Shown: one piece after another, positions 3,347 through 62,900 of the stretch
Position numbering within the stretch: position 1 is the first letter of the stretch
How the letters are laid out: every line of letters starts with the position of its first letter
NCBI GenBank assembly: GCA_963969365.1
Contig: OZ017746.1
Location: forward strand, 3,906,001 to 3,970,000
Reading direction: 5' to 3'
Length of the DNA: 64,000 bases
Origin: Asterochloris sp. CNOR1
Lineage: Eukaryota; Chlorophyta; Trebouxiophyceae; Trebouxiales; Trebouxiaceae
Notes under the pieces: model-generated
Told to the model about the DNA's origin: nothing
Database searches by the model: none
Seen by the model: only the letters and a program-made list of their open reading frames with translations
Program-made: the position numbers and the translations under genes

Positions 3347-6084
3347 CTACTGGCCCTTCTGGACAGCCTGGGGTGCATCCAGTGTGTCCAACCAGCTGTC
3401 TAGAGACTGGGGAGGGGCTGGCGAAGGTGAAGCTAGGGGGTTTGCTGTTTGAGCCGGTCCTGAAAGATAACGAGGTGCATCTCGCCGCCTGGGATCTGGC
3501 CTGCGCTCCCTGATCGGGTCCTGCCTGAACATTCTCTGCTGAGGCTCAGGGCCAGACTGCTGCCGGGCGCCCGTCCACGAGCTTGGGGGACTTGGCTGTG
3601 GGAAGGCATCTGGACTGTCAGCATACTGCGGCGAAGCCTCAGCAGCGGGCCTTGCAAATTGCTGCTCCTGCCAAGCGGGTGCTGGCTGGGCCAACTCTGC
3701 GTACTGCGGCTGGGCAGGCCGCTGGTCAACCTGCAGCTGCATGCGCGACTGCTGGGGAGGCGGCAAGCTCAAGGGCGCCTGCCTCTTGCCTGCCATCCTG
3801 CTGAGCATTGGTGGATCCTGCATGCAGCAGCATGGCCACATGTGTCAGCTGACCTGAGTTGCCCACAGCTCGAGGGCAGACGGGGGACAAGCCCTGGCCA
3901 GTAGCGACATGAGGAGCAGTGCTGCATCAGCCTACCCTGCCATAGACGTCCCTGTACTGGGAGCCATACTTCTCATACCACTCTGCAAACTGGTCGTCAT
4001 AAGCCTTCTCCATATCGTCAACAGGCGCTTCAGGAGTCAGCTTCTCTGCAAGCTGCTGCAGCACCTGCACAGGCAGGACACCCTGTCATGCGCTGGGCCA
4101 GAACAGGGCGGGAGGAAAGTGTCTCATGCAGCGCAGCTTGATCAGTGCGCTGCTCACTGCAGCGCTGAACAGGGCCAGGCAAGGGCCCAGCCCTGTCAGC
4201 TGCATACAAGGTGACACCTCCATGTTTGCATGGGGGAGGAAACCAACAGCGTCCCTCTGCTCAGCGTCCCAAGCTGCTCACCTCGACAGCTGCCGTGCTG
4301 AAGTTGGCCACCCCGTCCAGGACGCCCCTGCCCACCACCTGGACAGCATTCTCACGGTAGGCATAGAGGACAATGGCGTTGTCGGTCACCTGCAGCAGCA
4401 GACCATGCCACAAGAGCCTGAGGCCATGCTTGGAGCTTCATGCTGCATATCAAGGCACACAGGAGGCCTCAGCAAGGTCTGTGGGCTGCGCTCGAGCTTC
4501 AGAGTCCAGCAGGAGCAGTGAGGACATGATTGAAGGAGACGCTGCAGTTGGTCAGCAACTAGACCGCTCTAGCCTGCAACAGATACTACCTTGGGAGGTC
4601 AGCAGCATGCCCAACCTCCACACTCCCTGACTCCTGCACATCCTGTATGCTTGACACCCACAGTGATCTGACTTGTGCACAGCCGGCCTGCCAACATTCT
4701 GGGCCACTCACCTCCTGCACATCCTGCATGCCAACCTCCTTGCAAGTGAGGAAGGCGTCAGGCAGCGAGGGCAGGCCCAGGGCGTCAAACCGCAGCGCGC
4801 CGATCCGCCCGCTGTCCGGGCTGAACACAAAGTCGCGCACCTGAAGAGCAGGGCAGGGCTCGAAGTGTCCAGCCACAGGCAAGCAGGAGGGCGTTTGTGC
4901 AGGGTACCTGCCTTGTGCAGCGCTGCTGCCGCCTGCAGGCGCCGCCTGCAGGCGCTGTGGGGACTGCAGGGGGCCTTGCCGTGCAGGAGGCACCTGCCCG
5001 TCCTTCGTAGCGATGAGCAGGAGTCTGGCCAGCACGAGATGGCAGCAGCCCCTGTGGCAGCAGGTTTGCCTGCTTGTCCTGAGTTGGCCCACTCAGCCAG
5101 ACATCAGATATGACTGGCAGTTAGGGTCCAGAGGGCAGCTGGGGCAGCCCCTCCCCTCTAAACAGCCTGGCTCCAATGCAAACGCATCAGCAGGCTCCAG
5201 ATACCAGTCTTGCAGCAGCACGTAGCCACTCGCCTTGCCCAGAGTCATCCCGGCAGCGGTCTTCACAGGCAGGCCGACCAAGCGCATGGCGGCAGGGGGC
5301 GCCTGGTACAGAGCCGCTGCCGCGCTGTCCACCAGGATCACATCAGAGATCTGGCGCAGCGTGCGCAGGGGCAGGGAGTTTTTCTCCGACTCTGAGACGA
5401 TGCCGTGCCAGCGCTCGCTGGTCAGGCCAGCGACCCGCAGCGTGTAGGGGTCCACCCAGATCTGCACAGCAGGCACGCTGGCCCCTGTGAGAGTGCTGCC
5501 ACTGCAGGTGACTGTGCGGCTGCTGCTTGTGCGCAAAGCATTGCATTGCAGCAGTACTCTGGCCAACCCACAGGTAGCCAGGGTCTGCAGGCAGGGTGAG
5601 CTAGCATGAAAGGCTCACGATGTTGTGATGCTGCTGCTGTCAGTGATGCTGGCAGCAGGCAGCATGGTGCCTGGGGGCAGGCTGTTGTCTACCAAGCCTG
5701 GTGCCAGATGGTAGAGGTGCCAACCTGGGTGACGGTGCCCAAGTTGTTCCCCTCCTTGCGTGTGATGATGGTCTTGCCGGCAACCTGGGATCGCAGGACC
5801 CAGAACTCCTGCCTCTGAAGTGCAACACTCTTGGCAGTGCTTGGGAGCTGCCGCTGCTGCTGCTGGGCAGGCTGCTGTACACTCTGGCTTCTGTTTTGGG
5901 TCTGCTGCTGCGATGCCTGGGCCCTGCATGCATACCTGAGCTTCCACCTAGGCTGAAAGTGTGGCTGCTCCCGAACCCAGGAGTGATGTAGCTTTCTGGT
6001 ACTGCTCACATGCAGCTGCCTGGGGCAGTTATGCAGCTGCATCATAGGCACGAAACCCGGGCTGCAGCCACACAAGAAGATCAA
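3347..6084 (-). CDS. PRC-barrel domain protein, probably plastid-targeted
   Basis: Six minus-strand exons: 5725-6084, 5222-5461, 4712-4840, 4282-4389, 3936-4064 and 3347-3817. All phases join, for about 478 residues from the first Met (464 from the Met pair at 6042/6039). Exon 1 encodes a basic, Ser/Gln-rich leader without acidic residues, typical of a transit peptide, then VLRSQVAGKTIITRKEGNNL, the first PRC-barrel strand set. A second barrel follows: LVGLPVKTAAGMTLGKASGY joined to VRDFVFSPDSGRIGALRF. Cyanobacterial and plastid proteins carry such paired PRC barrels; their role is unknown. Exon 5 is helical and acidic. Exon 6 is Pro/Gln/Ala-rich and disordered. The first exon and upstream DNA are partly duplicated at 7288-7530. 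Confidence 0.8.
4609..4658 (-). repeat. Exon-edge shadow of PRC-barrel exon 3 (donor side)
   Basis: Intron sequence just beyond the donor of exon 3 (4712) repeats the exon's 3' edge: ctcctgcacatcctgtatgc here against ctcctgcacatcctgcatgc in the exon, with a second scrap (atgcccaacctccacactcc) beside it. Confidence 0.6.
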
Positions 6085-6120: not shown

Positions 6121-6234
6121 ATCCTGAGAGATGTTCCCAGGAAATGACGAAGCTGGGCACACTCAACATCCAACTCATTTGTTGAGAGCGCCTAAAGCTG
6201 TCGCGGGCCATTGGCAGGGACCACCCCCACAAAC

Positions 6235-6576
6235 ATGAACCTTCGTGAGGAAGAGCTTGAGGAAACTTTTGGGCCATGCACCGACAAGGTGTTCAATAAG
6301 TCGCCTCGGATCGTCTTGGCCAAGACACGCAACTGCTACTGTTACAGGGACATCGGTCCTGACCGTGTGGAAGCTCCCCCGCCACTCTACTGTGTTGTAG
6401 AGGTTAGTGACCGCACAAAAGGAGTCACCATCAGAGACATCTGGCGCAAGCTGCAGGCTTGGGAGATTGAAGAGTGCGCCCACATGTTCCTTGAAGCCTG
6501 CACACACAAAGGCAGCAACATGTATAACTGTACTTTGGTAGATGAGAAAGCTCCGCTTGTAACCTTACGGATGTAA
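6235..6576 (+). CDS. Unidentified 113-residue ORF
   Basis: Uninterrupted ATG-to-stop frame, less GC-rich than its neighbours. Product starts MNLREEELEETFGPCTDKVF and is rich in charged residues and Cys, with IRDIWRKLQAWEIEECAHMF near the middle. I do not recognise a domain. It lies between the two direct-repeat copies and just upstream of a retrotransposon fragment in the same orientation, so it could be part of that element (an ORF1-type product) or an unrelated captured or orphan gene. No introns are needed. Confidence 0.35.
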   Translation: MNLREEELEETFGPCTDKVFNKSPRIVLAKTRNCYCYRDIGPDRVEAPPPLYCVVEVSDRTKGVTIRDIWRKLQAWEIEECAHMFLEACTHKGSNMYNCTLVDEKAPLVTLRM

Positions 6577-6582
6577 CTACAA

Positions 6583-7290
6583 TTGCTCTGGTCTTGCACC
6601 ATCTGGTACCATGTGGGCGGCCAGGAGGAGCTGCTGGCGAAGCTGCAGGCTGGACAGCAGATTGCCTCACCTAGTGGCTGTGCTGCAACTGCCTATGGGA
6701 CGGTCCAACGCAAACGGCACTGTCAAGCACTGATGCCCACGGTGGCAGATGCAGAACACAGGCAGGTCAGGCAGAGGCTGGCACACGCCCGCCGGCACCC
6801 ATTGCAAGCCTCTGCCTCTGAGCTGACCAGGCTGCAGCACCAGGTGCAAGGTATGCACAAGCACATGAAGCGCAACTACTTAAAGGCCAACAGTGCCAAG
6901 CTTGAGGCTGCATGCAGGGCAGGGCGCCAGTCTTTCTGGACACCCTTTAAGATCTGGACGCAGTCTCAGTGCCCTGTGGATGCTCAAGCGCAGCTTGTGT
7001 ACATGCAGGAACTACATGGCGCGGTGCCGGCGCCTGCCCTGCGAGCTACCTGTTTGCAGGAATCCCGCACCTGACGTGGGCACAACTTTATGTTGACACA
7101 TCACTGCCGCAGAGGTTGAATGGGATCTGTGGCGGGCCAAGCGCGGCCAGGCAGCTGGTCATGATGGCCTGTCTGCAGACGTGCTCAAAGATGCAGCCCC
7201 TGCTCTGCTGGATGAGTTTGTCCACCTGTTGAATCACTTGTTTGCAGGCGATATCCCTGATGCATTATCCATGGATCTCATCACAGCTGT
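6583..7290 (+). mobile_element. Truncated non-LTR retrotransposon (LINE) fragment
   Basis: Two reading frames of an endonuclease/reverse-transcriptase polyprotein. The first (6583-7074) encodes the Arg/Gln/His-rich linker that commonly precedes the RT, with RQRLAHARRHPLQ and FWTPFKIWTQS. After a frame change, about 7097-7290 reads EVEWDLWRAKRGQAAGHDGL, SADVLKDAAPALL and LFAGDIPDALSMDLITAV, the start of an RT domain (the GxDGL... PxxL block). The RT then stops where the second direct repeat begins, before any catalytic FADD-type motif. This is a dead, 3'-truncated copy. Confidence 0.72.
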
Positions 7291-7530
7291 GCTGCCGGGC
7301 AGGCTGCTGTGCTGGAGGGTGCAGTCTGACTTCTGTCCTGGGTCTGCTGCTGCGATGACTTGGCCCTGCATGCATACCTGAGCTTCCTCGCAGGCTGGCA
7401 GTGTGGCTGCTCCCAGGAGCAAGGTAGCTTTTATTGCTCAGATGCAGCTGCCTGGGGCACTTAAATTCGTAGCAGGCTGCAGCTCACAAGAAGATCAAAT
7501 AATCCAGGTCCAGGCCTTACAGCTCTCGCG
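7288..7530. repeat. Direct repeat copy 2 (decayed PRC-barrel leader duplicate)
   Basis: Second copy of 5858-6120. On the minus strand it still reads RKLRYACRA followed by SQQQTQ, as in the PRC-barrel leader, then hits a stop. It has small indels and no barrel domain downstream. It directly follows the break in the retrotransposon fragment. Confidence 0.75.
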
Positions 7531-7762
7531 GCAGCACTACAGGGCTGGCATATCCCCACGCAGCAGGCAATTGCGTTACTGACATCATACTTGAGCACTC
7601 CTGCTCGATCTGCTCCCTGGCAGCACTTCAAGAATTGTTCCCGCTGGAGCCCGGCCAGCACTTGATGTCCCGGAGGGACTAAGAGACGTCAACATTAATC
7701 TGGAGAGAAAGACTGAGAGGGGCCCAGGCAGCAAGGCCAGGCGTGAGGCTGGAGGTAGCCCC
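7531..7762. other. Gap upstream of the COV gene
   Basis: About 230 bp between the second direct repeat and the COV start; expected to contain the promoter and leader. I see nothing else in it. Confidence 0.4.
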
Positions 7763-9476
7763 ATGGCAAGGGGGGATGGCAGCGGTGATGGGCAGTCCAG
7801 GGATGCAGACGCTCTTCTAGACCCCGAAAGGGCGTCCCCAAAGGCCAAGTCTCCCAAGCACAGCGCCTCTGCGTCCACTCGAGAGGTGGGCACATCACAA
7901 ATGCTTGAGGCAGAGTGCACCGCCTGCAGGCTCCCTGCCCTTACCTGTTTTGAGTGGCATGAGCATGTATCAGGGCAGTCATACCTGCAGGCCATCAGCT
8001 CCATGGCACACAGCTGGGCCTCTCGGCGCTTTCTGAGTGGCTGGTGAGGCTTCACGTCCCTGTCCAGTGTTTCGCCAGTCCTTGCCTGCATGTGTGCCCG
8101 GGCACAAGCCTCCAAGCAAGCCCTGCACCCTCTGCAGCGCCGTGTTGTTCCCGATGGTGGTCACGGTGTACATCACATGGTGGTTCCTTCAGTTTTTTGA
8201 CAACTTCTTCTCGGTGAGGCCTTGAGCTTCAGCGGGACACATGCATGCTGCATCTCTGCAACAGCACAGCAGGCCAGATGCACACATGCTCTGCACACTT
8301 GCACCACCCCAGCAGCTCATCGAAGCTGCCAGCAGCCCAAGCTGCATGTATGGCTTGTGCATCTGCAGTTTCTCAGCAGTACATGAATTGAGGCATGGGT
8401 CGCACCTGCCAGCAATGATATTGACAGCCCCATTGCTACAGCCAATATATAAAAGCATGTTTGGCATCCACATCTTTGGGCTGGGCTTCCTGACATCCAT
8501 GGCATTCATTTTCATGACAGGTGAGTTAAGTGCTGCAGGGGCAGGCTTGAGGCCTGCCTGCTGCTCTTGAAGGTAGCCTGGTGTCCTGTCTAGACTCTGA
8601 GTCAGAGATGCATGGGGCCGCACTGTCAGTGCGACCCTTTGCTTGCCTACAGCGCTCCATCTGCTGCCCGCCGCTGATGCATTCAGTTCCACTGAAGTGC
8701 CATCACATGACAGCGCTGTGACATCACCGTGAACATCCTGTGGCTGTAAGCTGTGTCTAGGTGCAACAAGGGTTTTGCACACCCTGCAGGGGTGTTTGTG
8801 TCATCCTACCTGGGCGGCCTGCTCCTGTCGTTGGGGGAGTGGATCATCAAGAAGCTCCCGCTGGTGAAGCATGTGTACTCCGCAGCCAAGCAGGTCAGCG
8901 CAGCAGTCAACCCCAGCAATGAGACCGCGCAGTCCTTCCGCGAGTGCGTCATCATCAGGCATCCCCGGCATGGGGAGTTTGCCTTTGGCTTCATCACCGG
9001 GCAGACCACGCTTCAGGTAAGGGGAACGTCTCCCGCACATGCCGGCCCACTGCCCTTTTGCTTTGCTTCCTTTACCCCCCAGGCTGCAAGCAAGTTGATC
9101 CTGGGCAGTCTGCAAGTCCCGCTGCTGGCCTTTAGCACTGACAGCACTGCTGTTTGCTTCACGCCCCAGCAGCTTTGCACTGTAATACATGCCTGGGCTG
9201 CCGGCCTGCATGCCCAGCTGCTGGCTGAATGCTTGACCAGCAATGGTAGCGTCTGCCTCTGACCTCAGCTTGCTTTGCTGGATGTAGGACGCAGATGGCG
9301 ACCTGCAACTGTTCAGTGTATATGTGCCCACCAACCATGTCTATGTGGGCGACGTGTTTCTCTTATCTAAGCAGGACATCATCAAGCCAAACTTGTCTGT
9401 ACGGGAAGGCCTCGAGATTGTAGTGTCAGTAGGCATGGCCCTCCCGCCTCAGTTACTTGCAGGCAGCCCCACATGA
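7763..9476 (+). CDS. COV1: COV/LCV family (DUF502) membrane protein
   Basis: Six exons: 7763-7885, 7991-8043, 8138-8213, 8442-8520, 8790-9016 and 9288-9476, with exact phases, 248 residues. Exon 1 is a charged, Ser-rich cytosolic N-terminus. The first membrane segment is VLFPMVVTVYITWWFLQFF, then IFGLGFLTSMAFIFMTG and SSYLGGLLLSLGEWIIKKLP, followed by the conserved soluble part: HVYSAAKQVSAAVNP, IIRHPRHGEFAFGFITG, VYVPTNHVYVGDVFLL and VREGLEIVVSVGMALPPQL just before the stop. Arabidopsis COV1/LCV proteins act at the Golgi/trans-Golgi in trafficking and vascular patterning; the algal role is not known. The start is the first in-frame ATG; the weakly conserved N-terminus makes it less sure than the rest. 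Confidence 0.9.
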
Positions 9477-9937
9477 AGCCCCACATGAAGCAGCATTGCA
9501 TCCTGTCATGGGCAGTTCGTAATTTTCCAAGCACATTGGCCAGAAAGCAGAAGGGGCAATTCGGGGCAATAATTGTGAGATTGCTGACGGCTGCCTGGGA
9601 CGGGCGCTCTGGTTGATTGCTCATCGACCATTTGATCACGCAGTGGCAGTATACAGGCAAGTTTACCCTGCCGGTCACGTCCAGACACAGCTTCCACTGC
9701 TAACACATCAAACCTTGGCAGAGGGCCCTCTCAATCAGGGCAGGATGAGGGCCAGCCTCGACAGCTCGAGAAGGGGTTGCCTATGCAAGACACAGGAGCT
9801 GTAGACCTAAGGTGCTGGCCTGCTTGTCCTGATGCACCTAATCCATGATGCTCTGCATCAGGAGCTGGCACCAGTGCATGACCTGCTTTGCCACAAGTTG
9901 TAGTTGAATGGATGCGCATTGCAGGGGCTCGGGTGCC
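9477..9937. other. Gap between the COV gene and crescerin
   Basis: COV 3' UTR and crescerin promoter. Just after the stop there is a short tandem repeat (gccccacatgaa twice, 9466-9491). No coding exon is supported. Confidence 0.4.
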
Positions 9938-12900
9938 ATGGCTCAAGGCGTGGAGTTTGGCTTCGTGCCCAGCCAGGTCATCAGGGACCTGAGGGACATT
10001 GGCAACTGGAAGGTGATGCCCTGCACACATCCTGCAGTGCTGTTGATTCCTCACATTGAACTGCGGAGGTGCTTATGTTGGCAACTGACAGACATCCCTG
10101 TCCCTCATCTGGTTTGCCGATCAGCCTTTGGCAGGGCAGGCGCTTGCCCAGGCCACATTGTGCTCATCTGCAAAGGCAGTCGTCACCATGAAGGGCTCTT
10201 TCTGCCTCCCATCAGCCGGGCTGCTGCAGGCAGCCTGTCCTGGTAAGCAATGTTCTGGCCGTGAACAAGCAGTGCACACTGATGCTGCAGGTCCGCGCGC
10301 TGGCCATCGATGCGCTGCAAGCAGCGGTAGGCAGCGTGTCAGACAAGCTGCAGCTGCTGCCGACGCTGTCCAAGTTCATTCAATTCCTGATGTTGCTGCT
10401 GGCCGATCCCAACTTCAAGATCAGCCTGTCCACCATGCAAATCCTGGGGGACCTCATCACCAAAGTGGGCTACGACATCAAGCCCTACCTGGGGTGAGGC
10501 TTTGGCCCTTGCTGACAGTCGAGCTCTGACATGCTGCCTTGCCAGGGAGTGCTTGCCCCATTAGCAGCATGACCTACACCCCGCCCATGAAGAGGCGCCA
10601 GTCCCTCTGCATGCAGCTGCCAGACAGGCGGCCTCCCAGGTCTGGCTGCTCTGGCGACATGTCCGGCACAGCAGCCACCTGTGCCCTGTGGGCATGATCA
10701 GAGCTGCCTGCACTCGCCATGCCTGATGGGTGAGGTGGCCATCTCGTTGTGACAAGTAGCGGTGCCTGCTGGCTGTCACGCTGTGACATGCACCGCGGCG
10801 CACAGCATGCCTGGCTTATCAAGGTGGCAGTCTGATGCAGCCCCCATGGCTGCAAACCCCTGGTCCTTATGCTGCTTTCTTGGGCGCTGACAGGTGGGCA
10901 AGCCTATCAAAGATGACATTGGCCTGAGATTGGCCTTGGCAGCAGGATGCCTCTCACTGTGCAAGCCTGGCCTGTCACAGTCTATCACACCTTGAGAATG
11001 CTGATATCGCTGGTGCCAGCTGGCGTCAGGGCCATCATGCTGGGCATGCGTCGGCAAAGCTGCCTGGCAATGTCCCTGATGACACATGCTTGCCTCTGGC
11101 TGCATGCACGTCACAATGGGCCTGATTGACAAGGCCTGCACTGACAGCTCCTGAGCAGCTCCTCGACAGAGCATGTCTGCCTCTGTCTGCAGGATGTCAA
11201 GCCCAGCATGGTTGCTACGGCCTGCCTTGAGGGTCTGGGGCAAGGTCTTTGACAGCGTGTGCATACCTCTGTCTGCAGAGACGTCATGCCCGGCCTGATT
11301 GACAAGCTGGGCGACAACAAGATCGTGGTCCGCCAGGCTAACACACGCGTGCTGAAGATGCTCATGGAGGTGCTGAGACCTCGAGCGGTCCTGGAGGGCC
11401 TGTCTGGCGCCCTGCTCCACAGCAACTGGCGTGTTCGGGAGGAGGCAGTCAACATGTTCACCCTGGTGAGGTTGGGCAGCAGAAGGGCTTCCTCCTTGAG
11501 GGCCGATGATGGCTGCTCTGTGCTGGTCAAGCCCCAGCATGGACGCAGTGTATCCAGGAGTAGCAAGGGGTTGTACTGGCACGTCGGCAGGACATGGAGG
11601 GTGTGCATGAGAGCCTGGATGCACAGGTTGCAGCGCCTTGTTTTGGGTCAGCCTGACTTTGGGCCCCAGAAAGACAACATCACAGCCTTCTAGCTGCACC
11701 TCAGCCATTACGAAATGCGGGAGCCTGTTGCCTTGTCTAGCTGCTGCATCAAGCCTCAGCCGCTGTCTGCACCTACTGCCGCCCTGCAGGACCTGTGCTC
11801 AGTCAAGCGGTTTTGAGCGCGTGCAGATCTGTGATCTCCCCTTTATTGGTTATGCGAGCTGTGCAGCTCTGCAGCCCACCTGCTGTGTCAGACATCTGTG
11901 TGTTAGGGCTCAGTCGTTCTTCTGCTTGCTGGCTGCGGCAGCAAAACTTCTGCTGAGTAGAGCATCTGCACGTGCAGGCTCTGCTGTCCTTCCGGCGAGA
12001 TGAGTTCACATTTCCCTTTGTGGTCAAGTCGCTGGTGCAAGCCATTGATGACCCCAAGGAGAGGGTCAAGCTGGCGGCTGTGGAAGCCATGGCAGTTGTG
12101 AGCAGCATGGTTGGCTCGCAGACGGGGCCGCTGCTGAGCGCTGTGGGGGCCACAGAGAGTACCCGGAGCCTGCTGAATGAGCGCTTTGCCAACAAGGCCC
12201 TGCCCAGTCTGAATGCGGACGACCTGGTGGAGCATCAGGTGGGCTGCAGCAACTTGCCACTCACAGCACCTGACAGCGCTCGCATCCCACTGCATGGGCG
12301 CTTTGCGGCAAGGACGCTGTGCAGCCTGAATGGGATTGAGATCTGGTGCAGCACCATGTGGCTAGCACTCACAGGAGATGCTTGTTGCTAGGCTGCACTC
12401 ATAAAGCCATTGGCATCTGGGCTGTGCACACGGGGGTTGATGCTGGGATGCACTCAGAGCAAATAATAGTCACAGAGAGGGTGTGGCAGTTACAGGCGGC
12501 GTGTTGTTGCAGGGAGCACTTGTGAGAGGTGCCTTCCCTAAGCCTGTACGCTGCATTGCGGCAGATCTGATCAGCCAGTTCTGATGACTGCGGGTCCGCA
12601 TCAGTCTGTACTCAGGCTCTTGAACAACAATCATGGGACTCATAGGTACTCTAGGTACTCTGCTGCCAGTAGTATGGGTGACACATGCAGGCCATCAGCT
12701 CCAGGCTTGCTGCCAAGTGCCAGGTTGTCGAGTTCGCCGTCCTCCTGCAGTCACGTGCAGGCCTGGGGAAGGCCCTGACACCTCCAGGCTGTCGTTCACC
12801 AGGCTGCCTGCGCAACATCTCCAGTGCGCCAAGCTGCGCTGCCTGCTGCAGGCCCACGCACGCCCAGCCAGCGCGGCGGGGCCCACCCTGACTCAGGTGA

Positions 12901-15900
12901 TGGTGGGCACCGATGCAGCCCTGCCCCCTCAGGCTTCCCAGCACCACCTCCCCCCCTCAGCCTCCAGGCAGTCCTACAGCCAGCCCTGGAGCAACGCGCT
13001 CGCGCCAGCCAGGCTGCTGCGAAACAGCAGCAGCGGGCCTCGGGGGCGCTCCTCTGATGGTGAGTAATCCCTAAATAACCTAGATTCTGTTGCTCAGTGG
13101 GTCCCTGTGCTGCACGCTCCAAAGGCCCTCTGAGGTCAAGCGGTGCCAGCCAAGGGGGTGAGGCAGCATAGGGCAGCAAAGCGGCTGCTGGCGCTGGTAT
13201 ACACTGCGCTGGCCAGCAGTCTAGCTGGCAAGCCTGAGGGTTGGGTGCGCAGTGGAGTGCTTCCAGGGTGTCCCTCTGCCTACCTTTGGAAGTGAGAAAC
13301 TCCTGAATGCACCTTTGCTCCATGTCTGTCGATGGCTATGCCGCCGCTCTGGTATTGACGAGGTGGCATCTACTCGGACGCTGGACTCCTCATCGCCCCT
13401 TTCGACCGCTGCTGGATGAGATGCATGCAGCACTGTGCTTTTTGACTGGTGCAGGTGTAGGTGCAGAGACGGGCCCCAGCAGCAGCAGCTCCCTGGACGG
13501 GGATAGGGTGGACGGTCTCGGTGTGGTGGGAGTTGGCGCACCCTCAATGCTCAGCAGCGGGTACAGCCAAGAGAGCGGGCAGCCTGCAGCTGGCAGGGCG
13601 GTAGGCAGCACTGCAGGGCAGGCAAACGGCCACGGCCACCCCTCTGCTGAGAAGGGCTCGGGGGGGTGGCCACAGCCTGGGCGGTGGGGGCCCCAGCACG
13701 GGCAGCACGCACAGGCGGCGCACCAGCCGGGAGCTTCCCTGGCTGTCCGTGGTCAAACCTGGCGAGGGTCTGGAGCCCACTGCAGCCCTGTCGTCTGGCT
13801 CAGGGCAGCTCGCCAGGGGCCAAGCAGCCAGCATGTCACCTGAGAGGGAACCTGCGCTGTCTCCGGGCGTGAAACTGGGTTTGGGGCTGCAGCAGGCCGT
13901 CGGTGAGGAGCGCTACAACCCGCTGGCGATCACTTACAGCAACCTGCAGCCCCTAGCCCAGCTGGACGACTCACCGAGTGTGGCTGGCGGCCCGCACAGG
14001 GGACCCTCGCTCAGCCCCAGCGAGCAGCACCACAGCTTGGCTAGCAGCCTGAACCGGGGCCCTTCAACAACGTCCAGCGTGGGATCGCCCCTACCATCCC
14101 CCACCGAGCAGCTCTTGCAGCCGCGGCAGGGCGTCCAGGCAGCCATTGTTAGCTCGCCTGTTGACGACTTCAGCCATGCCTCTGGCGGCGCCTCCGCGCG
14201 GCGGCAGCTGTTTGCAGAGGCCCTCGGCCCCAAGCAGAAGCAGGAGCAGCACAAGCCACTGGGGAGAGCGGCAGACTGGTTCATCAAGGCTGAGGGGTTG
14301 CCTGGGCAGTCAGGGAGCCCCACGCCTGCCGCTGGCACCGACCGGTGGAGTCTGTCCTGGGAGGTGAGCCCAGCTGCATAGGCATTGCTTTTGATGCTTG
14401 AGGAGCTTTGTAGCCCAGGATCTGTGCAACAGCTGAGGATTCCTGCAACAGCTGATGACGTGACTAAGGCCCTTGCCTTTGGGATTGGCCGTTCTTCAGG
14501 GGCGAGCAATCCTTGTCCTGACAGTTTCCAGAGCTGCTGGGCATCCATCCTGTTGTGCACATGACATGCTAAATAAGGTTTTTCTGAGAGCCGAGAGGGT
14601 ATTGTGGGTCATGTCTCCTGCATCAGGCACACGAGGAGAGTTGAACCACTTGCCCAGCTGCTCTGCAGCAGTGTGAGTGGCTGCTGCGCAGCAAGCCTAC
14701 AATCAGCGCCAGCACTTGCATCTCTGCTGCCTTGGGACGCAGACTCTGACATACTCCCCGCCGAACCCAGCTGCAGGCCAAGCAATCCCTGCCGAGCCCG
14801 CCTGCCTCCTGCCCAGCTGCTGCCCTTGCAAGCCCCTTACGGAGGCCACTGGCCCCAGCTGCAGGTCAAGCAGCCCCTGCAGAGCCTGTCGCCGGAGAAG
14901 CGCCCGGCCCCCTTGGTCTCCCCCTTCCAGGGCGCAGCCGGCGGGCGAGCCCACAGCGCCTACAGCACAGAGCGGCACTCCGGCCGGGCAGGGCTGGCTG
15001 CCCAGGCGGAGGCAGGGCTGGCACCCAAGCCCCTCACCCTGGAGGAGGTCCCTGAAGGGCGCCCAGGGGCAGGGCTGGAGCCGGCCTGCAGCAGCCCCAG
15101 CCGTGTGGGCATGAAGCTGCAGCACCTGAAGCAGCGGCAGCAGGTGGGGCAGGGTGTCATGTTCCACCTGCAAGCTCTCCAGCTGCCGTCTCACAGCTGC
15201 ACAGCAACGTGACTCTGCCTGTCTGACCGTTTCCAGCGCGTGTGCTGGAGGGGACCACGCTTGCTTTGCGACCTCGCCTCAACACACCTGGGCTTTACTC
15301 GACCTACTGCCTGTCAGGCAGACGTGCAGCAGCACCTGCAGCCACCATCTTGACTGCTAGCTGTGCATGTGCAGGAGGCGAGGCGTGTCATGAGCGCCAA
15401 CGCTGCTCTGCAGCGTCCAGCCGCCGGCCATGTGGACGGAGTCCAGGGCGCTCAGCTCAGTCACCAGAGCCCAGGTACAGCAAATGATGTGCTCTGTTCA
15501 TGTCGTGACTGCCTCTGCACAGTGCTGGCAGCTGCACTGGCTTGCACACACCAAAATGCTCCGTCACCAGAGGGTTGCCGCCCGCCCTGCTTTTGCAGGA
15601 CATCTGTTCTTGCGGCATCGTGTCACTGCCTCTGCACAGTGTGCATTGGCTGCACTGGCTTGCACAAGGCAATGCTTGGTGACCAGGAAGTTGCAGCATT
15701 TGCGGGGCTCTGTCCTTCTGGTGGGTCCTCATGTCATTTGCTGCACATGGGTGCCTTTCTGCTGCCCAGGCATGCTGCTTGAGCACCACCTGCCACGCAA
15801 GTTTGTATGTGGCCGGCCTGTGTGTCCTCCCTTTTAGAGATGCCTGAACTCTGACTCAGCCCTGAAGTTGATTGCTGCCGATCTGCAGGTGTCAGCCGCA

Positions 15901-31670: not shown

Positions 31671-32987
31671 ATGAAGCGGGCCAATGCCACCACCGGTGGT
31701 GCTGACAGCAACTCCCCAGACGACAACTCTGGGGACGGCAGCGGGTCAGGTCCTGGCGCAGGGGGTGCTCTGGCTTGGCAGGAGGCAAGCGGCCTGCTGC
31801 AGGGAGCAGCCAGCAGTCTGCTGCGAAGCGGCGCGACAGGGGCAGACCCAGCTCAGCCCCCAGCAGCACCACGCGTGGCAGTGGTGCCAGCAGCAAGCGT
31901 CAGCGGTGGCTGATGACGTTGCCTGAGGCCCGCTTCAGCCAGCTGGGGCTTGGCCAAGTGCTCGCGCGGAGGGCCACCAGGATGGTGAGACTTGCCTCAT
32001 CAGAGGCGACTGGGTTGTGGGCTGCCATGTTCAGGCTCGGAGCTGACTCAACTTGCACCTCCTCTGTCCCGAGCGCTGCCCTGGCCATGAGTGGAATGCC
32101 TGCAGCTTGTCACCAGGCCCCTCCAGGCTGCGGTCCTGTTCTGCAGAGGGTTCTGAGCTGCATGGGTCCCTGCAATGGTTGACGCCTATCCCGCCGTTGC
32201 CTGCGCAGATGAGGCGAGGCAACTTGGGCGGGGAGACAGCAATCTTCAAGCTGTGGGACATCCTGGAGGGCCCTGAGGTAGCGACTGAGGTGATGACAGA
32301 GCTGCAAGTGTACGAGCGGTTGCGCAGCCTGCAGGTGCGGGCTGGCTCGTGCTGCACGCCCTGCACACTGTCGCTTGCAGCTTTGTACCTGCAGGCATGC
32401 AGCCACAGGGCGCCGCTATCTGCTCGCATGAGAGAGCAGAGTGCATCCAGACCCCAACTTGCTTCAGACCAGGCAGAAGCACTGCCACAGGTTGCTTGCT
32501 GCCTTTTGATGCCGTATTGGTGCAGGGCTGCCATGTCCCCAAGCTCCTGGCTGCTGGCACTACTCTGGAAGGCGCTGTGGGCTTCCTCACGCTGTCAGAC
32601 TGTTGTGAGGAGGTGTCAGACGACAGCCCACTCCCGCAGAAGCTCCGCATTGCCATGACAGAGGCGGTCCAAGCAGTGCATAAGCACCACGTGTGGCATG
32701 GCAATCTGCATCCGCGCAATTTCCTGCATAACCGCGAGACTGACCGAATTGTGCTGGCAGACTTCTCTGTTGCACAGCTGCTGGACGGGCCGCATCAAGC
32801 GCTGGACGATGAGCTTGCGCACTTTCAGCGGTCCCTTGCTTGCTTGCCCTCCACCAGCAGAAATGTACCCGCTTGCACAGCTCCAGATGTCCTTAGGCAC
32901 TGCCTTCTGGCTTCAACTCCCGCCTTGGATGTTTTCTGCTCAACATGTGTGTCACCTTCAGAAGCAAAAAGCCCCTCTCACTTCTGA
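31671..32987 (+). CDS. Protein-kinase-fold protein, probably a pseudokinase
   Basis: Three coding blocks: about 31671-31984 (Ser/Gly/Ala-rich with KRQRWLM basic patch), 32209-32334 and 32526-32987. Block 2 (ETAIFKLWDILEGPEVATEV, ELQVYERLRSLQ) resembles a kinase N-lobe with helix C. Block 3 runs from PKLLAAGTTLEGAVGFLTLS through the C-lobe: AVQAVHKHHVWHGNLHPRNF, then IVLADFSVAQ. The catalytic loop has HGN where active kinases have HRD or HGD, and the DFG site is DFS, so catalysis is doubtful. The first block needs a frame change near 31770, so the start is unsure. After about 32870 kinase similarity fades, the frame reaches an inverted repeat and stops; the C-lobe looks incomplete. Confidence 0.5.
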
Positions 32988-50900: not shown

Positions 50901-53900
50901 CTGTCCAGTACAAGTGCGTCACAGATGCCCAGAAACGCAAGACCCAGCTCCCAGGTCGCGGTCTGGAGTTCATTGACAAGAACGGCGTCAAGCACAAGGT
51001 GTGCCTGCCTGCTTGCACCCAAGCAGCTCCTGTCTGTGCTGCCAGAAGGGTCACGCGCTCTCTGCAGGAGCCTGTTGACTTGCTACGCGTTGCTCTCGAC
51101 AGCAATCTGCTAGCAGGCTCAACCACACTTCTGACACTTCTGCAGGCCATTGAGCACTACACCTTCATTGCTGCTGATGGTGTTGAGATGCCCCTGGAGG
51201 AGGGGACCTCGGGCTTCATCACCATGAACCCTGGGTACATTGGCAGGGCTGAGCTGCCAGAGTCCCTAAAGGTGAGCTCAACTCAGTTGTGGCAAGTGCA
51301 AAGCCTTTGCCACTGCACGCTTGGTATTGGTGGCACAATACTGCCCTCTCTGAAAAATCTGGCCCACCCCTGCTCAGTGTTTTGATGTTGCTTAGCCTTC
51401 TGCAGCGCCTCTGTAGCAATGCTGGCCTTGCAATTGTGCAGCAGAGACAGCACAAAATCACGTTGGCACTAAAATGTGCCTCAGACATAGCTTTTTTCAG
51501 CTGCACTGCTGAAACCCTGAGGTGTCACGGCTCTGTCGCCTGCAGGCCCTGTTCCGGCCCATCACCGTCGTGGTGCCTGACAGGCAGCTGATCATGGAGA
51601 ACATGCTTATGGCAGAGGGCTTTGTGGAGGCCAAGATGCTGGCCAAGAAGTTTGCCTCCCTCTACTACCTGCTGGAAGATCTGCTGTCCCCTGCTAAGTG
51701 AGGCTGAGCACTGCCTAAGTTTCCAGGCATCCAGTATGTACTGAAACTGAGGCTGCATTTCCCTGCCAGGCGGTGCTGTCTTCTGGGACTGATGAGAGCC
51801 GGCCAGTCACATATGCTCAGCCAAGCAGGCCAGAGCTCTGCCATCTGTGAGAGCATGCCACTGCCTGCTCAGCGCCATCCTGTCCAAATGCTGCCCTGTT
51901 CAGCTGTTGCCCCTCTCAGCCCCTGAATCTGCTAGAGGTAACTGTTTCAGATTCCAGGAGTTGACACCTGCAGGCATTATGACTGGGGTCTGCGCGCCAT
52001 CAAGTCAGTGCTGGTGGTGGCAGGCTCCCTGCTGCGAGCTCAGGAGGGGCAGGTGGAGTCAGATGTCCTGTTCCGCGCGCTGCGCGACTTTAACATCCCC
52101 AAGATCCTGTCCCAGGACATGGTTATCTTCACAGGCCTGCTTCAGGATCTGTTCCCTGGCGTCAACCCTCCCAGGAAGCGTGACATAGAGTTTGAGAAGG
52201 TGAGCTGCCTGCATGAGCAGCACATAGCATGCACATGGCTAAGCCCCCCTCTGACTGCAGCTGCATAGGTGCCTCTGAGGCATATTGCATTCCTGGGGTC
52301 ACATCTCTGCAGGTCCCATTTCATGCACAACATACAGGCTCTCAGAGCAGCAGCTCAGCAATGGCAGGCGCATGTTTATGACACATGCAGCCTGCTGCAG
52401 GTCCTGACTTACATACTTCAAAGACTGGGCTGTCCCTCATACCAAGCAGGATCAGTCCAGCAAGGACCTTGTTGGCTGAGTATAGTGCCTGCTGCAGGTC
52501 ATCATCGACACAGCCATCAAGATGGGGCTGACTCCTGAGGATGACTTCATCCTTAGGGTGGTGCAGCTGTCTGAGCTGCTTGCCATTAGACACTGCGTCT
52601 TCCTCATGGGCCCCACTGGCTGCGGGCGCACTGAGGTCTACCGTGTGCTGGCCAAGGCCATCCAGCAGGGCACTGACAAGCCGGTCAACACCTACCTGGA
52701 GGTCAACAACCGGAAGAAGGTGAGAGCTCTGCGGCTGCCTGACCTCGGAGGTCAGGGGGACACTCCGCAAGCTGCACACCAAGCTGGGGCCGTGCTTGCT
52801 CCCAAGGAGCTGTCTGGCGGGCACATCAAGCACCGGGCTGTATTGGGTTTCCAATACGCAAGCAATGCTGTAAGGCAGGCCAGCAGCATGCTCCACCTGC
52901 AGCAAGTGACTGCAGCAGTAGTGCCCCAGTTGCTGTGGACTCCTGTAGTATACCACCTGCTGTACCAGCGCGTTGACTGCAGCAGCAGCACCTTCGCCAC
53001 CAGGGGCTGCAGGGATACGCTTTTGAACTGACCCCAGCACTGGCCTGCAGGTGGTCATCAGGGACCTGGACCCCAAGGCCATCAGTACCCAGGAGTTGTA
53101 TGGCTACGTCAACATGGCCACACGCGAGTGGAAGGATGGCCTGCTCTCCTTTAATATGCGTGAGCTGGCCAACATCCCTGATGACAACCCCAAGTGGATC
53201 CTGCTGGACGGAGACCTGGATGCTAATTGGTGAGGCTGTACACACAGAGTGCCTTGCTGCTGGCGTAGCGCCTCATGCTCGCCTGACATAGACATGTCTG
53301 GCTCAGCATGTCCTGATGCCCATCCACATTCGGGGCAGTCCTCTATGCTTCTAAGGAGATGGGTTATGCTCAGCCGAGCTGACTAGACTTGTTTCTGTGC
53401 TTCCCGCCCTGCTGGTACCTGCGGCCCAGTCTGCTTGCATAATTTCCAGTGGAAGCTTTGGCCTGCGTGGGCAGTCTGCTGACTACGGCTGGTCCTGCAG
53501 GATCGAGAGCATGAACAGCGTCATGGACGACAATCGTCTGCTCACGCTCCCCTCCAATGAGCGCATCAGGGTGCTGCCCCACATGAAGCTCATCTTCGAA
53601 ATCCGTGACCTCAAGTTTGCCACCCCTGCCACAGCCACCAGGGCTGGCATCCTCTACATCTCTGAGGGTCAGCAGTGGAATAACATGGTGCAGTCTTGGA
53701 TCCAGAAGGTCGTCAGGTGGGTGAACTCAACCTGAAGGTGCCTGGGTTCTGGAGTTGCTGGCTGCTCAAGGCAGTGCCATCACGCACTCCTCCTCCTTTC
53801 GTGGTGCCTGTGGCAGGGCAGCAGTTCGTGCTGGCTAGTGCCCTGTGCGCTGCAATGCAATGAATCGGCCCCAACATACGTGTGGGTCTGCCTCCTGCTC

Positions 53901-56900: not shown

Positions 56901-59900
56901 CGCTGTCATGGACCTGGTTCTGTTTGAGGATGCCATGAAGCATGTGTGCCGCATTTCCCGCATCATCTCCAGCTCCAGGTGACAGCAGCCCATAAGTGTT
57001 CATGTGCACTGACCCAAAATCAGATCTTTCAGGGTCTGCCTGAACACTGAGGCTGGCAGCAGTGCTGGCTTTCCTTCAGGCATTTTGCAGACAGTGCTGC
57101 TTATGCATTGTGCAGCAATCTGTGGCTGCAGCTCCCTGGCAAGATGTTCCTTAAAAACCATAGGGCATTGAGAGCTGTGATCCTCCCTGTGCTGCAGTGG
57201 GCATGCCCTGCTGGTGGGTGTAGGCGGCTCCGGTAAGCAGAGTCTGGCTCGGCTGGCCGGCCACATCTGTGGCTACTCAACCTACACAATTGTCATCTCT
57301 GGCAACTACAACATGAACAACTTCAAGGAGGAGCTGCAGAAGATGTACAAGCGTGCAGGCGTCAAGGCAAGTCTGCTTCCTGGTAATGATATGCAATCTG
57401 GCCACATACGTCGCCCAATGCTAAGGCTGATTCCAAATAGGCCAAAATTGACTTTGTAACAAGCCTGGATCAGCAGCTGAGTTCTGTGTTGTGCTCTGCA
57501 TAGCAACCAGTGCCAGGCTATGCCGCTGGCAGCTTGCTGCAGGGCACAGACCTCATCTTCCTCGTCACAGATTCTCACTCAAGCGTTGTGGCGGTGACTG
57601 CACACAATCCTGAAAGTGTACGGCTGGCTGTTTCTGCAGGGCGAGGGCCTCATGTTCCTCTTCACTGACAGCCAGATTGTAGACGAGCGCATGCTGGTCT
57701 ACATCAATGACCTGCTGTCCAGCGGAGAGATCCCTGACCTATTTGCTCAGGAGGACAAAGACGAGATTGTGAATGCTATGCGCTCAGAGACCAAGGCCAT
57801 GGGCTTGGTGGACACCACTGAGAACTGCTGGGCAACCTTCATCCAAAAGGCAAGACTGCCGCTGCTTCTGCTGAGGGCAGTGCCTCTCCTGCCACGCAAG
57901 CCCTTTGGCCTGCCATGCCTGCTTGCAAATAAGCCAGCACTCCCCTCAGTGTGTGCAATGACCACAGTCTGCTTCATGTGCGGCGCAGGTGCGCAACAAT
58001 TTGCACATGGTGTTCACGGCTTCGCCTGTGGGTGCTAACTTCAGAGTCAGGAGCCAGCGTTTCCTGGCCACCATCAACTCCACCGTCATTGACTGGTTCC
58101 AGCCTTGGCCAGAGTCCTCTCTCCTCAGGTGAACATGGATGTAGCACACAATTGCATGGAAAAGGTGTGCTGCCTCCTGCCTGGCCTGTGTCCCCTCCAC
58201 GAGGCGCACATTGCTGCAGCATGATGCTGCACAGGCTGCCTCTGGTGTACATTGCTATAACAAGTCACCCTCAGGCCGATGCCTGGCCCCCACCATTCAT
58301 GATGCTTGTACCAAGCCCTACACCTGCAGTGTCGCCAAGAAGTTCCTGGATGATGTTGAGCTGGGCAGCGACTCCATTCGCAACGCGGTGGTGGAGTTCA
58401 TGCCCTACAGCTTTGCAGCTGTCAACGCTCAGTCCAAGCGCTTCCTGGAGGTAGGTCTCACCTGCTCAGTGGTCTGCATGCTGCCAGAGCGCTCTCCTCA
58501 AGAAAGCTAATCTGGGAGTCTAGGAGTGCAGATCCTGCCAAGCCATCTTGTTGTGCAGCAGCTCATGCTGACTGCTCAGACAATGACATGCAGACCGAGA
58601 AAAGGTACAACTACACAACCCCCAAGACGTTCTTGGAGCTCATCAAGCTGTACAAGTCTGTGCTGGCTCGCAAGCGTGAGCAGGTCCAGAACTCCATTGA
58701 CCGCCTGGACACAGGTGGGGCCAAGGTGCCAATCGTCGCATAGCAGGTTAGACATTGGCATTTGCAGAGCACGCGGTTGCCAGATTACTGAGCAGCAGGT
58801 TTTGGCGGCGTGCAGTCTCACACAAGGCAAGCTGCTGACAAATAAAACGCCGCTGTAGGTCTGGGCAAGCTGCAGAAGACTCAGAAGGATGTAGACATCC
58901 TTGTTGAGGAGGCCAAGATCAAGGCAGTTGAAGTGGAGAAGAAGGTTGCAGATGCAGACATCTTTGCTGAGCAGGTGAGGCCTCTAAAACAATGCTTTAC
59001 CGTCAGGTGGCAATCCTTGCCTGCAGCGCAGGCAGGAGCTTGGAACTGTGCGAGCAGCAGGCAGCATTTGTCAGGGCCAGGCTGTTGCTCTTTGCACTGG
59101 GCAGACGGCAGGGTCTGCTTGGTCTTTGCACTGGGCAGGCAGCAGCAGTTGACTGCTGCAGAGACAGTGTCTTGATGTTTGCACTGAGCAGGCAACAGGC
59201 TTTGCCTTAAGTGTCAGGCAGAAGTTGCTGGTTGTGCTGGGCATTGGGTTGCACTTGCTTGACCTGGCCTGACAGACTGACGGCCATGCTCTGGTGTGCA
59301 GGTTGGTGTCGAGAAGGCAAAGGTGAATCTTGAGAACGACGCTGCCCAGGTAGAGGCAGAGAAGTGTGCGGTCATTGCCAAGGATGTCACTGAGCTGCAA
59401 GCGCGCTGTGAGAAGGATTTGGCAGCAGCTGAGCCCCTGGTGGCTATGGCAGAGGCTGCTCTAGACACGCTGAACAAGAAAGATCTTGGTGAGTTTGCGC
59501 ATGGATGACGGTGGGTGTCTGTCTGTGTGCCACCAAGGTGTTATTTCAGACTGCCTGATTGAACCACCTGAGGTTCACTTGCTATGCTGCAGGTGAGGCC
59601 AAGTCCCTCAAGAAGCCACCAGCAGGTGTGGACGACATCACAGCTGTCATCCTCATCTTGCTGGAGGGCAACCCCAAGGACAAGTCTTGGGGCGCAGCCT
59701 GCAAGGTACATGCCCAGCACAACAAGCGGCACTGTCTCTGCGGGGATCTGCTGTCATACAGTGTGTACAGACCTTGCTGTGTGACTCGCGCTGCCATGAG
59801 GACTGCTGCTGCACCTGCAGGTCATGAACAATGTGGACAAGTTCTTAGAGCGTCTCAAGGGATTCAAGCCCCTCATCGACGACAACAAGATCCCCAAGAA

Positions 59901-62900
59901 GAGCTTTGACGCCACCCGCTCCTACCTGGAGCTGCCACACTTCAACAGGTCTGCAGGCAGCAGCAGCTGATTGCCGTGCAGGTGGTTCTGATGCAAATAG
60001 CCGCAGCTCAGTTTTGTGCTTCTACTGGGACAAGCAGTGACCCCTAAAGCTCTGCTCTGCCTCTCGACACCATGCTCTAGCTCAGCTGCCTTTGTGGCAT
60101 GACTGGATGCAAGCAAATGGCAGCTGTCATTTGCTCCCTCTGTGATGCCAATACGTATCGCTCTGCTGCCCTGTGGCCTGGCTGAATGCAAGAGACAGGA
60201 CTGCCCCGTCTGGTGCAGGGACATCATTGCCAACAAGTCCAAGGCTGCTGCGGGGCTGTGTGACTGGGCCATCAACATTGTCAAGTACTATGATGTGGTC
60301 TCTGAGGTCAGCAGAAGTGCCAGTCTTGATGTGCATGCTCGCTGTGTGCGTTGCTGACAGCACTGCAGTATTTGCTGCACATGCCAACCTTGTGCCCAAA
60401 GCTGAAGCAATACAAGCCTTACTTTGCATGCTGGCTGTGTCCTTGCTGCAGCACGAACACTTGGCGCCCAGCCCCACCTCCTGACCTGGCTGCGTGTAGG
60501 AAGGCTGTCACACCCAGCCATGGGCTGAGCCACACCTGGTGCGTGCAGGTGGAGCCCAAGCGCCAGGAGCTTGCTGCTGCCAACGACAAGCTGCTGGCCG
60601 CCAACACGCGCCTTAAGGAGGTGCAGGAGAAGGTGGCAGCTCTCAATGCCCAGGTTAAGCAGCTGGAGGACCAGTACAGCCTGGTGAGCCCTTTGCCGTG
60701 CTGGTGGCTGTTACTTAGAGGCAAGAACCACTGCTCACTGCATGCCACAACTCCTGCCAGGAGCTTGTCACCGCGAAGCATGCTGCTGGAGGAAGCACTA
60801 CGCAGGTTGCCATGCTAGGAGGCATACAGGACTGTGAAGCTTTATTGATGTCAGAGTTGGTGGCATTGTGATTACTTGGCTAAGTTTGGCTAGCTGCTCT
60901 GCAGGCTCTGGGTGAGAAGAACGCTGCCATTGCTGAAAGCGAGCGCTGCCAGCGCAAGCTGGGCCTGGCCAACCGGCTCATTGCTGCGCTGGCATCTGAG
61001 GGCGAGCGCTGGGCTCAGACGGTGCAGCAGCTGCGCAAGGACTACCAGGTCAGCTGATGGTTGCAGACCTGTGCAGGCTGCTGCACTTGCCTGCAATTCA
61101 TCTTGCAAACTCCTGGTGTCATGAGGCATGCAGCCAGCCAGCTCTTGTGACAAATGCCTGCTGCTACCTGCGCAGAGGCACAGCTTCTCCCACAGGCTGC
61201 TGATCTTGCTGGACGGTGTGGCACAAGCTCCTCTTTTCCCTGGCAGCTCTATCATCGACGGAGAAGGCTGCTGCAGGCTGACTCTGTGAGCTGGGTCGCC
61301 TGCAGGTGCTCACAGGCGACATGCTGCTGGCAGCAGCATTTGTCAGCTATGCTGGCCCCTTCACCAGCAAGTTCAGGGCTGGCCTGATCAAGGAGTGGAT
61401 AAAATTCCTGATGGACAAGGGTGCTCCCATGACGCCAGGCATCTCTGACCCCCTCAAGGTGGGCTTCACTTCCAACAGCATAACTGCAGCCGGCCAGGCG
61501 AGCTTGCCGCATGCCCTTTCGGTCACAACGTCCCCAAAAAGCATTATGGTGATGACGATGGTGATGAACGCAGCATCTGTTTTGCGAACCATGTTGGCAT
61601 CCTTCCAGTCAAGCTCTTGCATGGGACTACTTGCTGCCGCCCTGCAGGTGCTGGTGGATGATGCCACTGTGGCCAGCTGGGTGCGCGAGGGCTTGCCCAG
61701 CGACCCCACCTCGGTTCAGAATGGTACCATCCTGACCAACTCAGAGCGCTGGCCGCTGATGATGGACCCGCAGCTACAGGCACGTTGCTATGCACCACCT
61801 GAAAGAACATGGCCTGCCCTCACTGCCAGCTTGGCATTTGGCTGTGCTGGGGTGTCAAGAATAGCATCATCAAGACTTCCTGCTCCCACTGGATTCCATT
61901 GGCATCCTGAAGGCGCCAACCTGCTTTTGTCAAAGGTGCTTGGGCTCTCATTGAGCATCATTGCGCCAGCGAGCTTACAAGTCGCTGCAATGGTGCAGGG
62001 TGTTGTTTGGATCAAGGAGCGCGAGTCCAAGCACAACCTCCAGGTTGTGCGCATGGGCGCTGCTGGCACTGTGACTGCCATGGAGCGGGCCATTGAGGCT
62101 GGCCACTCAGTGCTCGTTGAAAACATGGGCGAGAGCATCGATGCTGTACTCAACCCTGTCATCACTCGTTCAACGTTCAAGAAGGTAGGGGCTGCAGCAC
62201 TTTAGCAGGCAGCCTGCCGCAGTGAGCCCACTGCCTCGGCGTCGGCCAGCACACAACGTAGAGCCCGCACCATGTGCTGCACTGCAGCCCCACTTTGCAG
62301 CAGATCATCCTGGGCACAAGCGCAGCTCGTTGGTGAAGCCTGACATGACAGCACAAACAATCTTGCAGACTGACAGCGCTTCTCCAGGTCTGGAAGTGGT
62401 GACGTTGTGATGCTGTGCTGTGCAGGGGCGCAGCATGTTTGTGAAGCTGGGGGACAAGGATGTGGAGTACAACAAGAACTTCAAGCTGGTTCTGCACACC
62501 AAGCTGAGCAACCCCCACTACCCGCCCGAGATCCAGGCTGAGACCACACTCATCAACTTCACTGTCACTGAGAGCGGGCTGGAGGACCAGCTGCTGGCCC
62601 TGGTGGTCAACAAGGAGCGCCCTGACTTGGAGGAGACAAAGACACACCTCATCATTCAAAACACAGAGTTCACCATCAAGCTCAAGCAGGTGGGTCGAAG
62701 TGTGGCCCAGCCATGAGCTGCAAGCAGTTTCAGGTAAAGTGTGCTGTGTCATTTTGAATCCTGAGTTCACCATGGACCTCAGAGCAAGCTTGGCCTGCCA
62801 GCTCTGCCAGGCTGGGCCCCTAGCTGTGAGGCTCACAGATGCCGTACAGACCCCTGAGGTCAGGTGCCAGCCAACAGGGTACACACTTGACATTCCACAC

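Follow-up and report, generated by a model that had tools for sequence, protein, structure and literature searches.

Decayed copies of exon edges in introns of the green alga Asterochloris sp. CNOR1 as probable footprints of small tandem duplications

Tandem exon duplication, including the kind that yields mutually exclusive exons, is local and tandem and copies whole exons together with both of their splice sites. Here, we examine a 64-kb window of the genome of the green alga Asterochloris sp. CNOR1 (C1:3906001-3970000; "the window" is this whole stretch), whose introns contain degenerate copies of the neighbouring exon edge with its splice site, hereafter called shadows; these share locality and tandem order with tandem exon duplication, but usually only the exon edge is copied. 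Small tandem duplications formed by end-joining of staggered breaks are known (Schimmel et al. 2021; PMC8355091) and, as outlined in that report, likewise consist of adjacent direct copies of tens of base pairs that require no repeat or homology, whereas they followed induced breaks in mouse and human cells and the shadows are natural, decayed and located at splice junctions. Repair-mediated local duplications of vertebrates (PLoS Genet 2009; PMC2671141) are summarised there as short, local and taking in parts of exons and intron splice sites, as here, but in the alga most short-offset copies are tandem and copies of edges are common. Intron gain by tandem duplication is also known (PMC2891723) and, in the outline of that work, equally involves tandem duplication in coding genes and splice words; there, however, the unit becomes a new intron and the exon tail should match the intron tail one intron length away, whereas here an existing junction is copied and that match is absent. 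In the open literature, covered through titles and abstract openings and with most subscription papers outside this coverage, we found no description of decayed junction copies as a common feature of introns. The mechanism is probably ordinary; what is new is the extent of junction duplication and the legibility of its record.

The analysed DNA comprised 264 kb, namely the window and 20 stretches of 10 kb sited before inspection, together less than half a percent of the 56.4-Mb genome (21 contigs). Gene models were produced by a purpose-written, self-trained hidden Markov gene finder working without annotation or transcript support. Its trained splice sites lie near CAG/GTGAG for the donor and TGCAG/G for the acceptor (the slash marks the junction), the acceptor being very strong, with T at 0.92, G at 0.95 and C at 0.99 before the AG. 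The 730 predicted introns had a median length of 162 bp; after exons shorter than 36 bp or with a coding score below 4 were dropped, 422 introns with a median of 256 bp were retained. Introns shorter than 70 bp were excluded from the edge test, leaving 408 of the 422 per side, hence 816 edges. Each edge probe, consisting of 40 exon bases and the splice site, was aligned to the rest of its own intron, equal lengths of introns from other genes serving as the null, and a score of at least 26 was considered a strong match. Self-repeating matches (shift of 1-6 bases) were removed from the repeat scans and metaprofiles.

A strong copy in its own intron was found for 65 of the 816 exon edges against 3.2 expected, with acceptor edges contributing 39 of 408 (2.4 expected) and donor edges 26 of 408 (0.8 expected). 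The window alone held copies of 10 of its 117 acceptor and 4 of its 117 donor edges, and the loci outside it 29 and 22 of 291, together 51 of 582. Edge copies are present in 18 of the 21 sources (window and samples) and in 29 of 60 genes. The observation is real and extends beyond the window. The original prediction, which concerned the window only, had spoken of introns across it; copies are indeed there, but this wording is too broad, as 60 of the 422 introns at all loci carry one at this threshold.

The very strong 3' consensus raises the question of whether chance or shared motifs, that is the TGCAG/G acceptor and GTGAG donor words, could mimic similarity, and short matches such as 52390-52403 are indeed mostly consensus. 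Introns of other genes contain the same words, yet they yield the 3.2 matches of the null against the 65 observed. Probes made of exon bases only still matched in 15 of 820 cases when a score of 28 was required; other genes' introns would predict 0.4 such matches and dinucleotide shuffles 1.0, and the inverted orientation gave 0 of 820. At score 24, the same probes gave 20 direct and 10 inverted matches of 820, with 2.0 and 3.2 expected, respectively. Probes taken 41-80 bases inside the exon matched in 4 of 647 cases at score 28. The excess also varies with distance, as the offset counts further below show. Matches are with the own intron: acceptor edges matched their own intron in 9.6% and donor edges in 6.4% of cases, an intron one position away in 0.29-1.16% and introns two or three positions away in 0-0.40%. 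As a general cause, chance and motif sharing are ruled out by these several nulls and we regard them as extremely improbable, although they account for part of the weakest cases in the window.

Metaprofiles around the junctions bear out the predicted direction, acceptor-side copies lying upstream of the exon and donor-side copies downstream. An upstream copy exists for 6.7-7.8% of acceptor bases from -10 to +19 (background 0.14-0.32%), and a downstream copy for 3.3-5.1% of the last 50 exon bases before the donor (background 0-0.51%). One to four shadows per source had been foreseen, in agreement with 52 edge clusters that hold, originals included, two copies in 41 cases, three in 7, four in 3 and five in 1.

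In the window, Pfam backs the models of a pantoate ligase, a PRC-barrel protein, a DUF502 domain joined to TOG/HEAT repeats, MTHFR and dynein motor domains, the search having covered the first 437 of the 1960 residues of the DUF502-TOG/HEAT model and a 700-residue stretch of dynein. The name "crescerin" stems from the original prediction, Pfam giving TOG/HEAT repeats for that model. At 8457-23466, the gene finder fuses a DUF502 protein with a TOG/HEAT protein, and these are probably two genes. The dynein model has 88 exons and 4369 residues with no stop; three gene models at other loci contain an inner stop. The matches found in the window are listed below (400 nulls for each shadow p value, so that the lowest attainable value is 0.0025).

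4631-4650, minus strand: donor-side shadow of 4712-4731 (PRC-barrel gene), offset 81, score 35, p 0.0025
11087-11133, plus strand: acceptor-side shadow of 11260-11306 (crescerin/TOG-like gene), offset 173, score 39, p 0.0025
14766-14798, plus strand: acceptor-side shadow of 14854-14886, offset 88, score 46, p 0.0025, by alignment
16929-16967, plus strand: donor-side shadow of 16649-16688, offset 280, score 51, p 0.0025
17540-17557, plus strand: weaker acceptor-side match of 17614-17631 (long intron), offset 74, score 26, p 0.032
18568-18615, plus strand: acceptor-side shadow of 18626-18673 with TGCAG/G retained, offset 58, score 46, p 0.0025, by alignment
19106-19150, plus strand: donor-side shadow of 18879-18924, offset 227, score 38, p 0.0025
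19561-19607, plus strand: acceptor-side shadow of 19636-19681, offset 75, score 45, p 0.0025
21903-21930, plus strand: acceptor-side shadow of 22134-22161, offset 231, score 46, p 0.0025, with an extra partial copy at 22004-22034
23046-23091, plus strand: acceptor-side shadow of 23166-23211, offset 120, score 37, p 0.0025
28013-28035, minus strand: acceptor-side shadow of 27852-27874 (MTHFR), offset 161, score 31, p 0.0025
28908-28932, minus strand: donor-side shadow of 29167-29191 (MTHFR), offset 259, score 30, p 0.0025
45732-45840, plus strand: intron-internal tandem duplication with a unit of 52, near a dynein donor site (Tandem Repeats Finder, TRF)
47069-47088, plus strand: acceptor-side match of 47268-47289 (dynein heavy chain), source exon-internal and off the junction, offset ~199, score 26, p 0.0025
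48152-48200, plus strand: intron copy of the exon stretch 48279-48327 (dynein), offset 127, 82% over 49 bp
52390-52403, plus strand: possible acceptor-side shadow of 52487-52500 (dynein), 14 bp, mostly splice consensus, score 28, p 0.0025
58826-58838, plus strand: marginal acceptor-side match of 58864-58876 (dynein), 13 bp, score 21, p 0.0075, near chance for 142 dynein edges
62320-62339, plus strand: marginal acceptor-side match of 62428-62447 (dynein), score 25, p 0.0125
62763-62786, plus strand: donor-side match of 62666-62688 (dynein), offset 97, score 24, p 0.0075

The first and last copies fit the limits of 4609 and 62789 that had been given for the phenomenon. Among the genes that had been named, strong copies occur at 9 of 46 edges of the crescerin-like gene, 2 of 24 of MTHFR and 1 of 10 of the PRC-barrel gene, whereas dynein is weak, with 2 of 142; at p of at most 0.01 it has 4 of 142 against 1.4 by chance, which is at best slightly above chance. 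No uS5m case was found: none of the 8 edges in the two models lying between the MTHFR and dynein genes was copied, and Pfam recognised no uS5m there, models 1515-2978 and 6029-8287 lying outside this search. Models 6364-8122 (0 of 4 edges), 31671-33411 (0 of 6) and 33759-34330 (0 of 2) showed no edge copy.

Direct repeats were also counted by offset independently of the gene models (score of at least 15). Per million base-offsets, their number reached 3.5 at 15-30, 2.1 at 30-50 and 2.7-4.8 at 50-130, then fell to about 1 at 130-300, 0.35 at 300-400 and 0.07 at 2-4 kb; the rate at offsets 50-130 is thus 38-68 times that of the 2-4 kb control, which consists of only 4 matches. The typical spacing of 50-130 bp originally put forward therefore stands for local repeats, which are most in excess at 50-130 and at 15-30, whereas the strong edge copies are spaced more widely (median offset 125 for acceptors and 155 for donors). 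The repeats amount to 159 events, of which the 119 at offsets 40-300 were used for class counts: 34 acceptor-side, 22 donor-side, 30 intron-internal, 9 exon-internal, 13 touching non-genic DNA and 11 other. In gapped alignment, a ratio of span to offset of 0.8 or more, indicating tandem adjacency, was found for 58 of the 75 pairs below offset 140 and for 29 of the 35 strongest pairs; this scoring is lenient and inflates weak pairs, and at random places the median ratio is 0.37 and the 90th percentile 1.51. Plain tandem copies are visible by eye, for example in L018 (unit of 119 bp), L012 (106 bp) and L007 (65 bp). Core identity ranges from 0.71 to 1.00, pointing to a spread of ages, and since the class medians are 0.84-0.87 and most copies differ, an assembly artefact was rejected.

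We consider it likely that the shadows are footprints of ordinary small tandem duplications filtered by selection. Such duplications, with units often of 50-130 bp, would strike genes of this intron-rich genome at many places over a long time. When one straddles a donor, the first donor would stay in use and the second exon end with its donor would fall into the intron; when one straddles an acceptor, the last acceptor would stay in use and the upstream copy would become intronic. Either event would be harmless because the outer splice site is still used and the protein is unchanged. From then on, the intronic copy would accumulate changes, with selection preserving the exonic original, and exon-internal duplications would persist almost only in multiples of three. 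Introns exceed the unit only modestly in length (median about 240-260 bp among the filtered models), so that many of the tolerated events would straddle a junction, and repeated rounds would lengthen introns and leave decoy splice sites behind. The molecular cause would be end-joining of staggered breaks or replication slippage. The data display direct orientation for the bulk of the copies, adjacency, and occurrence in any part of a gene with a frame filter in exons. Local tandem duplication over junctions, as originally suggested, is supported on this basis by 65 direct against 11 inverted edge matches of 816 and by spans close to or above the offset in the 58 short-offset pairs; junctions need not be special, however, as intron-internal (30 of 119) and exon-internal (9 of 119) events occur too.

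The frame filter is seen in the offsets, which are multiples of three in 11 of 12 exon-internal pairs (10 places in six loci, 9 of which conform) and in 5 of 5 cases where the inner copy is still exonic. No such bias exists for acceptor shadows (11 of 35), donor shadows (10 of 23) or intron-internal pairs (11 of 36). The same duplication therefore hits exons, where nearly only frame-keeping cases persist, and shadows are free of frame. The proportion of 13 of 21 among non-genic pairs suggests coding sequence missed there, and some exon-internal pairs may be old protein repeats.

Class shares were compared with simulations on the real gene structures, in which protein-changing duplications were rejected and copies were allowed to decay. 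The observed 34 acceptor, 22 donor and 30 intron-internal events are near the neutral 26.3, 26.0 and 33.8 obtained with event-free introns as templates (p 0.19), and the neutral model fits well at offsets 40-140 (p 0.34 when all introns serve as templates, 0.44 with event-free ones). Geometry and purifying selection hence give roughly the observed mix and a special status of junctions is not needed. Much of the metaprofile peak at the junctions is likewise predicted by the neutral model: given a unit of roughly 100 bp and an intron of roughly 240 bp, many of the tolerated events cannot avoid spanning a junction.

Several results nevertheless weigh against ordinary tandem duplication as the full account, some from the form of the repeats and others from their placement. 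As regards form, the span is tandem-like in only 23 of the 44 pairs above offset 140, and inverted edge probes are slightly over the null (11 of 816 against 3.7 expected at score 26). Exact inverted 12-mers numbered 25, 20 and 17 at offsets 15-40, 40-80 and 80-130, against 26, 26 and 44 direct ones; hairpin-like repeats thus exist alongside direct ones, and neither the inverted edge matches in excess of the null nor this short-range excess is accounted for by tandem duplication. Repair by capture of nearby DNA would produce spaced copies in either orientation rather than tandem ones, as would suit the 21 of 44 longer-offset pairs with a span below 0.8 of the offset and the small inverted excess. 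Direct edge matches are nonetheless six times as numerous, score 28 leaves 54 direct against 3 inverted of 816 (1.2 expected), and short-offset pairs mostly span the whole unit, so that capture appears very unlikely. Short-range inverted repeats are in slight excess across all loci, also near exon edges.

As regards placement, with all introns as templates the neutral shares become 24.6, 23.7 and 37.7 (p 0.07), and independent clusters depart further (30, 22 and 20 against 21, 20 and 31; p 0.005-0.02), while event-free templates, used with a quantile-based approximation of the offset list, give p 0.075 for clusters. Edges dominate among the pairs at offsets 141-300 (17, 12 and 4); a multi-round model whose units reach at most 140 gives p 0.00001-0.0002 for these, and a single-round model p 0.053. 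The multi-round model makes long-offset pairs too rare, with a long/short ratio of 0.09-0.22 where 0.62 is observed, and its three-round version fits the short ones poorly (p 0.019). Observed cores extend less into exons than simulated ones. Uniform relocation of events predicts 17.9 acceptor shadows where 34 are seen and 24.5 non-genic events where 13 are seen. Shadow sites also keep TGCAG better (0.84-0.97 per base) than the preceding intron bases (0.39-0.77), which may reflect ascertainment or weak selection.

The excess under uniform relocation, the edge-heavy long offsets and the cluster test with all introns as templates would suit an account in which junctions are true duplication hotspots, owing to breaks linked to splicing or transcription (R-loops, CTGCAG/G words, stalled forks). 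Junctions, mainly acceptors, would then be preferred duplication sites in this lineage and introns would grow by an edge ratchet, each duplication being silent because the outer site remains used; arrays would expand by homology, and the genome would accumulate a reserve of decoy splice sites that are ready for use and of exons that could later become alternative ones. The good neutral fit at offsets 40-140 argues against it, as does the shrinking of the excess to p 0.05-0.19 with event-free templates; moreover, intron-internal (30 observed against 31.1) and exon-internal (9 against 11.9) events are about as numerous as relocation expects, and donor shadows number 22 against 16.7. We therefore find such breakage at junctions unlikely, and an acceptor-driven ratchet in this lineage equally doubtful, although acceptors may be a moderate duplication hotspot.

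Introns carrying a shadow have a median length of 502 against 233 for the others, in line with the predicted lengthening. A shadow is present in 43 of the 99 introns that measure 400 bp or more, but in 17 of the 309 below that length, so that intron growth is probably promoted by this process. In the longer group, 7.2-8.6% of the intron sequence is covered by local repeats, in the shorter group 2.6-5.1%. The causal direction would run from duplication to long intron. Across all loci, the density of local duplications increases with GC (rho 0.49, 52 blocks of 5 kb) and correlates with intron fraction (rho 0.51).

Splice signals were scored in the junction-aligned shadows, namely 31 of the 39 acceptor and 14 of the 26 donor ones. 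AG is retained in 23 of 31 and GT in 9 of 14, so that the predicted supply of decoy splice sites is supported at the level of retained sequence signals. A splice-matrix score of at least 4 is reached by 22 of 31 acceptor and 6 of 14 donor shadows, and 6 of 31 and 4 of 14, respectively, score as high as the real site or higher. These retained signals could point to real alternative exons or splice sites, or to relics of whole-exon duplication, of which there is one clear case: at L022 6435-6587 and 6828-6974, a tandem exon duplication is 91% identical over 134 bp at offset 387, with the donor retained. Edge-copy offsets do not favour multiples of three, however; exon bases with a copy upstream become scarcer away from the acceptor, dropping from 7.8% there to 1.4% at 50-59 bp; and shadow sites score on average below real ones (4.6 against 8.2 for acceptors, 0.9 against 6.2 for donors). 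Whole-exon, in-frame duplication with both splice sites does not describe the edge shadows as a class and was found once, in L022; alternative exons or their relics are thus a very improbable general explanation, and the shadows would mostly go unspliced.

Two other sources of intron sequence were considered. Intron gain by duplication of a proto-splice site was rejected, the upstream exon tail matching the intron tail with at least 12 of 20 identities in 1 of 415 cases (1.0 expected); an exon-head/intron-head register match was found in 0 of 415 (1.1 expected), this test seeing only strong, ungapped traces. As for introners, edge-intron matches are confined to their own intron, in an analysis that made no intron-against-intron search, and one 992-bp region had a single other match in the genome, of 61 bp.

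If small tandem duplication has left such footprints genome-wide, many long introns of the lineage would trace partly to duplicated splice junctions and intron lengthening would be directly readable. By placing two similar sites side by side, the shadows would also let splice-site choice be studied as a natural experiment, and they would be a decoy-site warning for gene finders and RNA-seq aligners.

Repeats of other kinds were noted as well. A direct repeat of about 178 bp in the window (5853-6031 and 7286-7463) flanks a stretch without recognised genes (about 6240-7530); within it, the open frame 6577-7071 has a Pfam match only below the cut-off (E 0.034), the rest of the stretch lying outside that search. 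The stretch bracketed by this repeat is perhaps the remnant of a mobile element. About 70 bp at 5538-5609 of the window match C10:287770-287830 at about 90% on the opposite strand, as a small dispersed repeat. Finally, L016 holds a long inverted repeat (7057-8264 and 8793-10000) with arms of about 1.2 kb, reaching the end of the sampled stretch.

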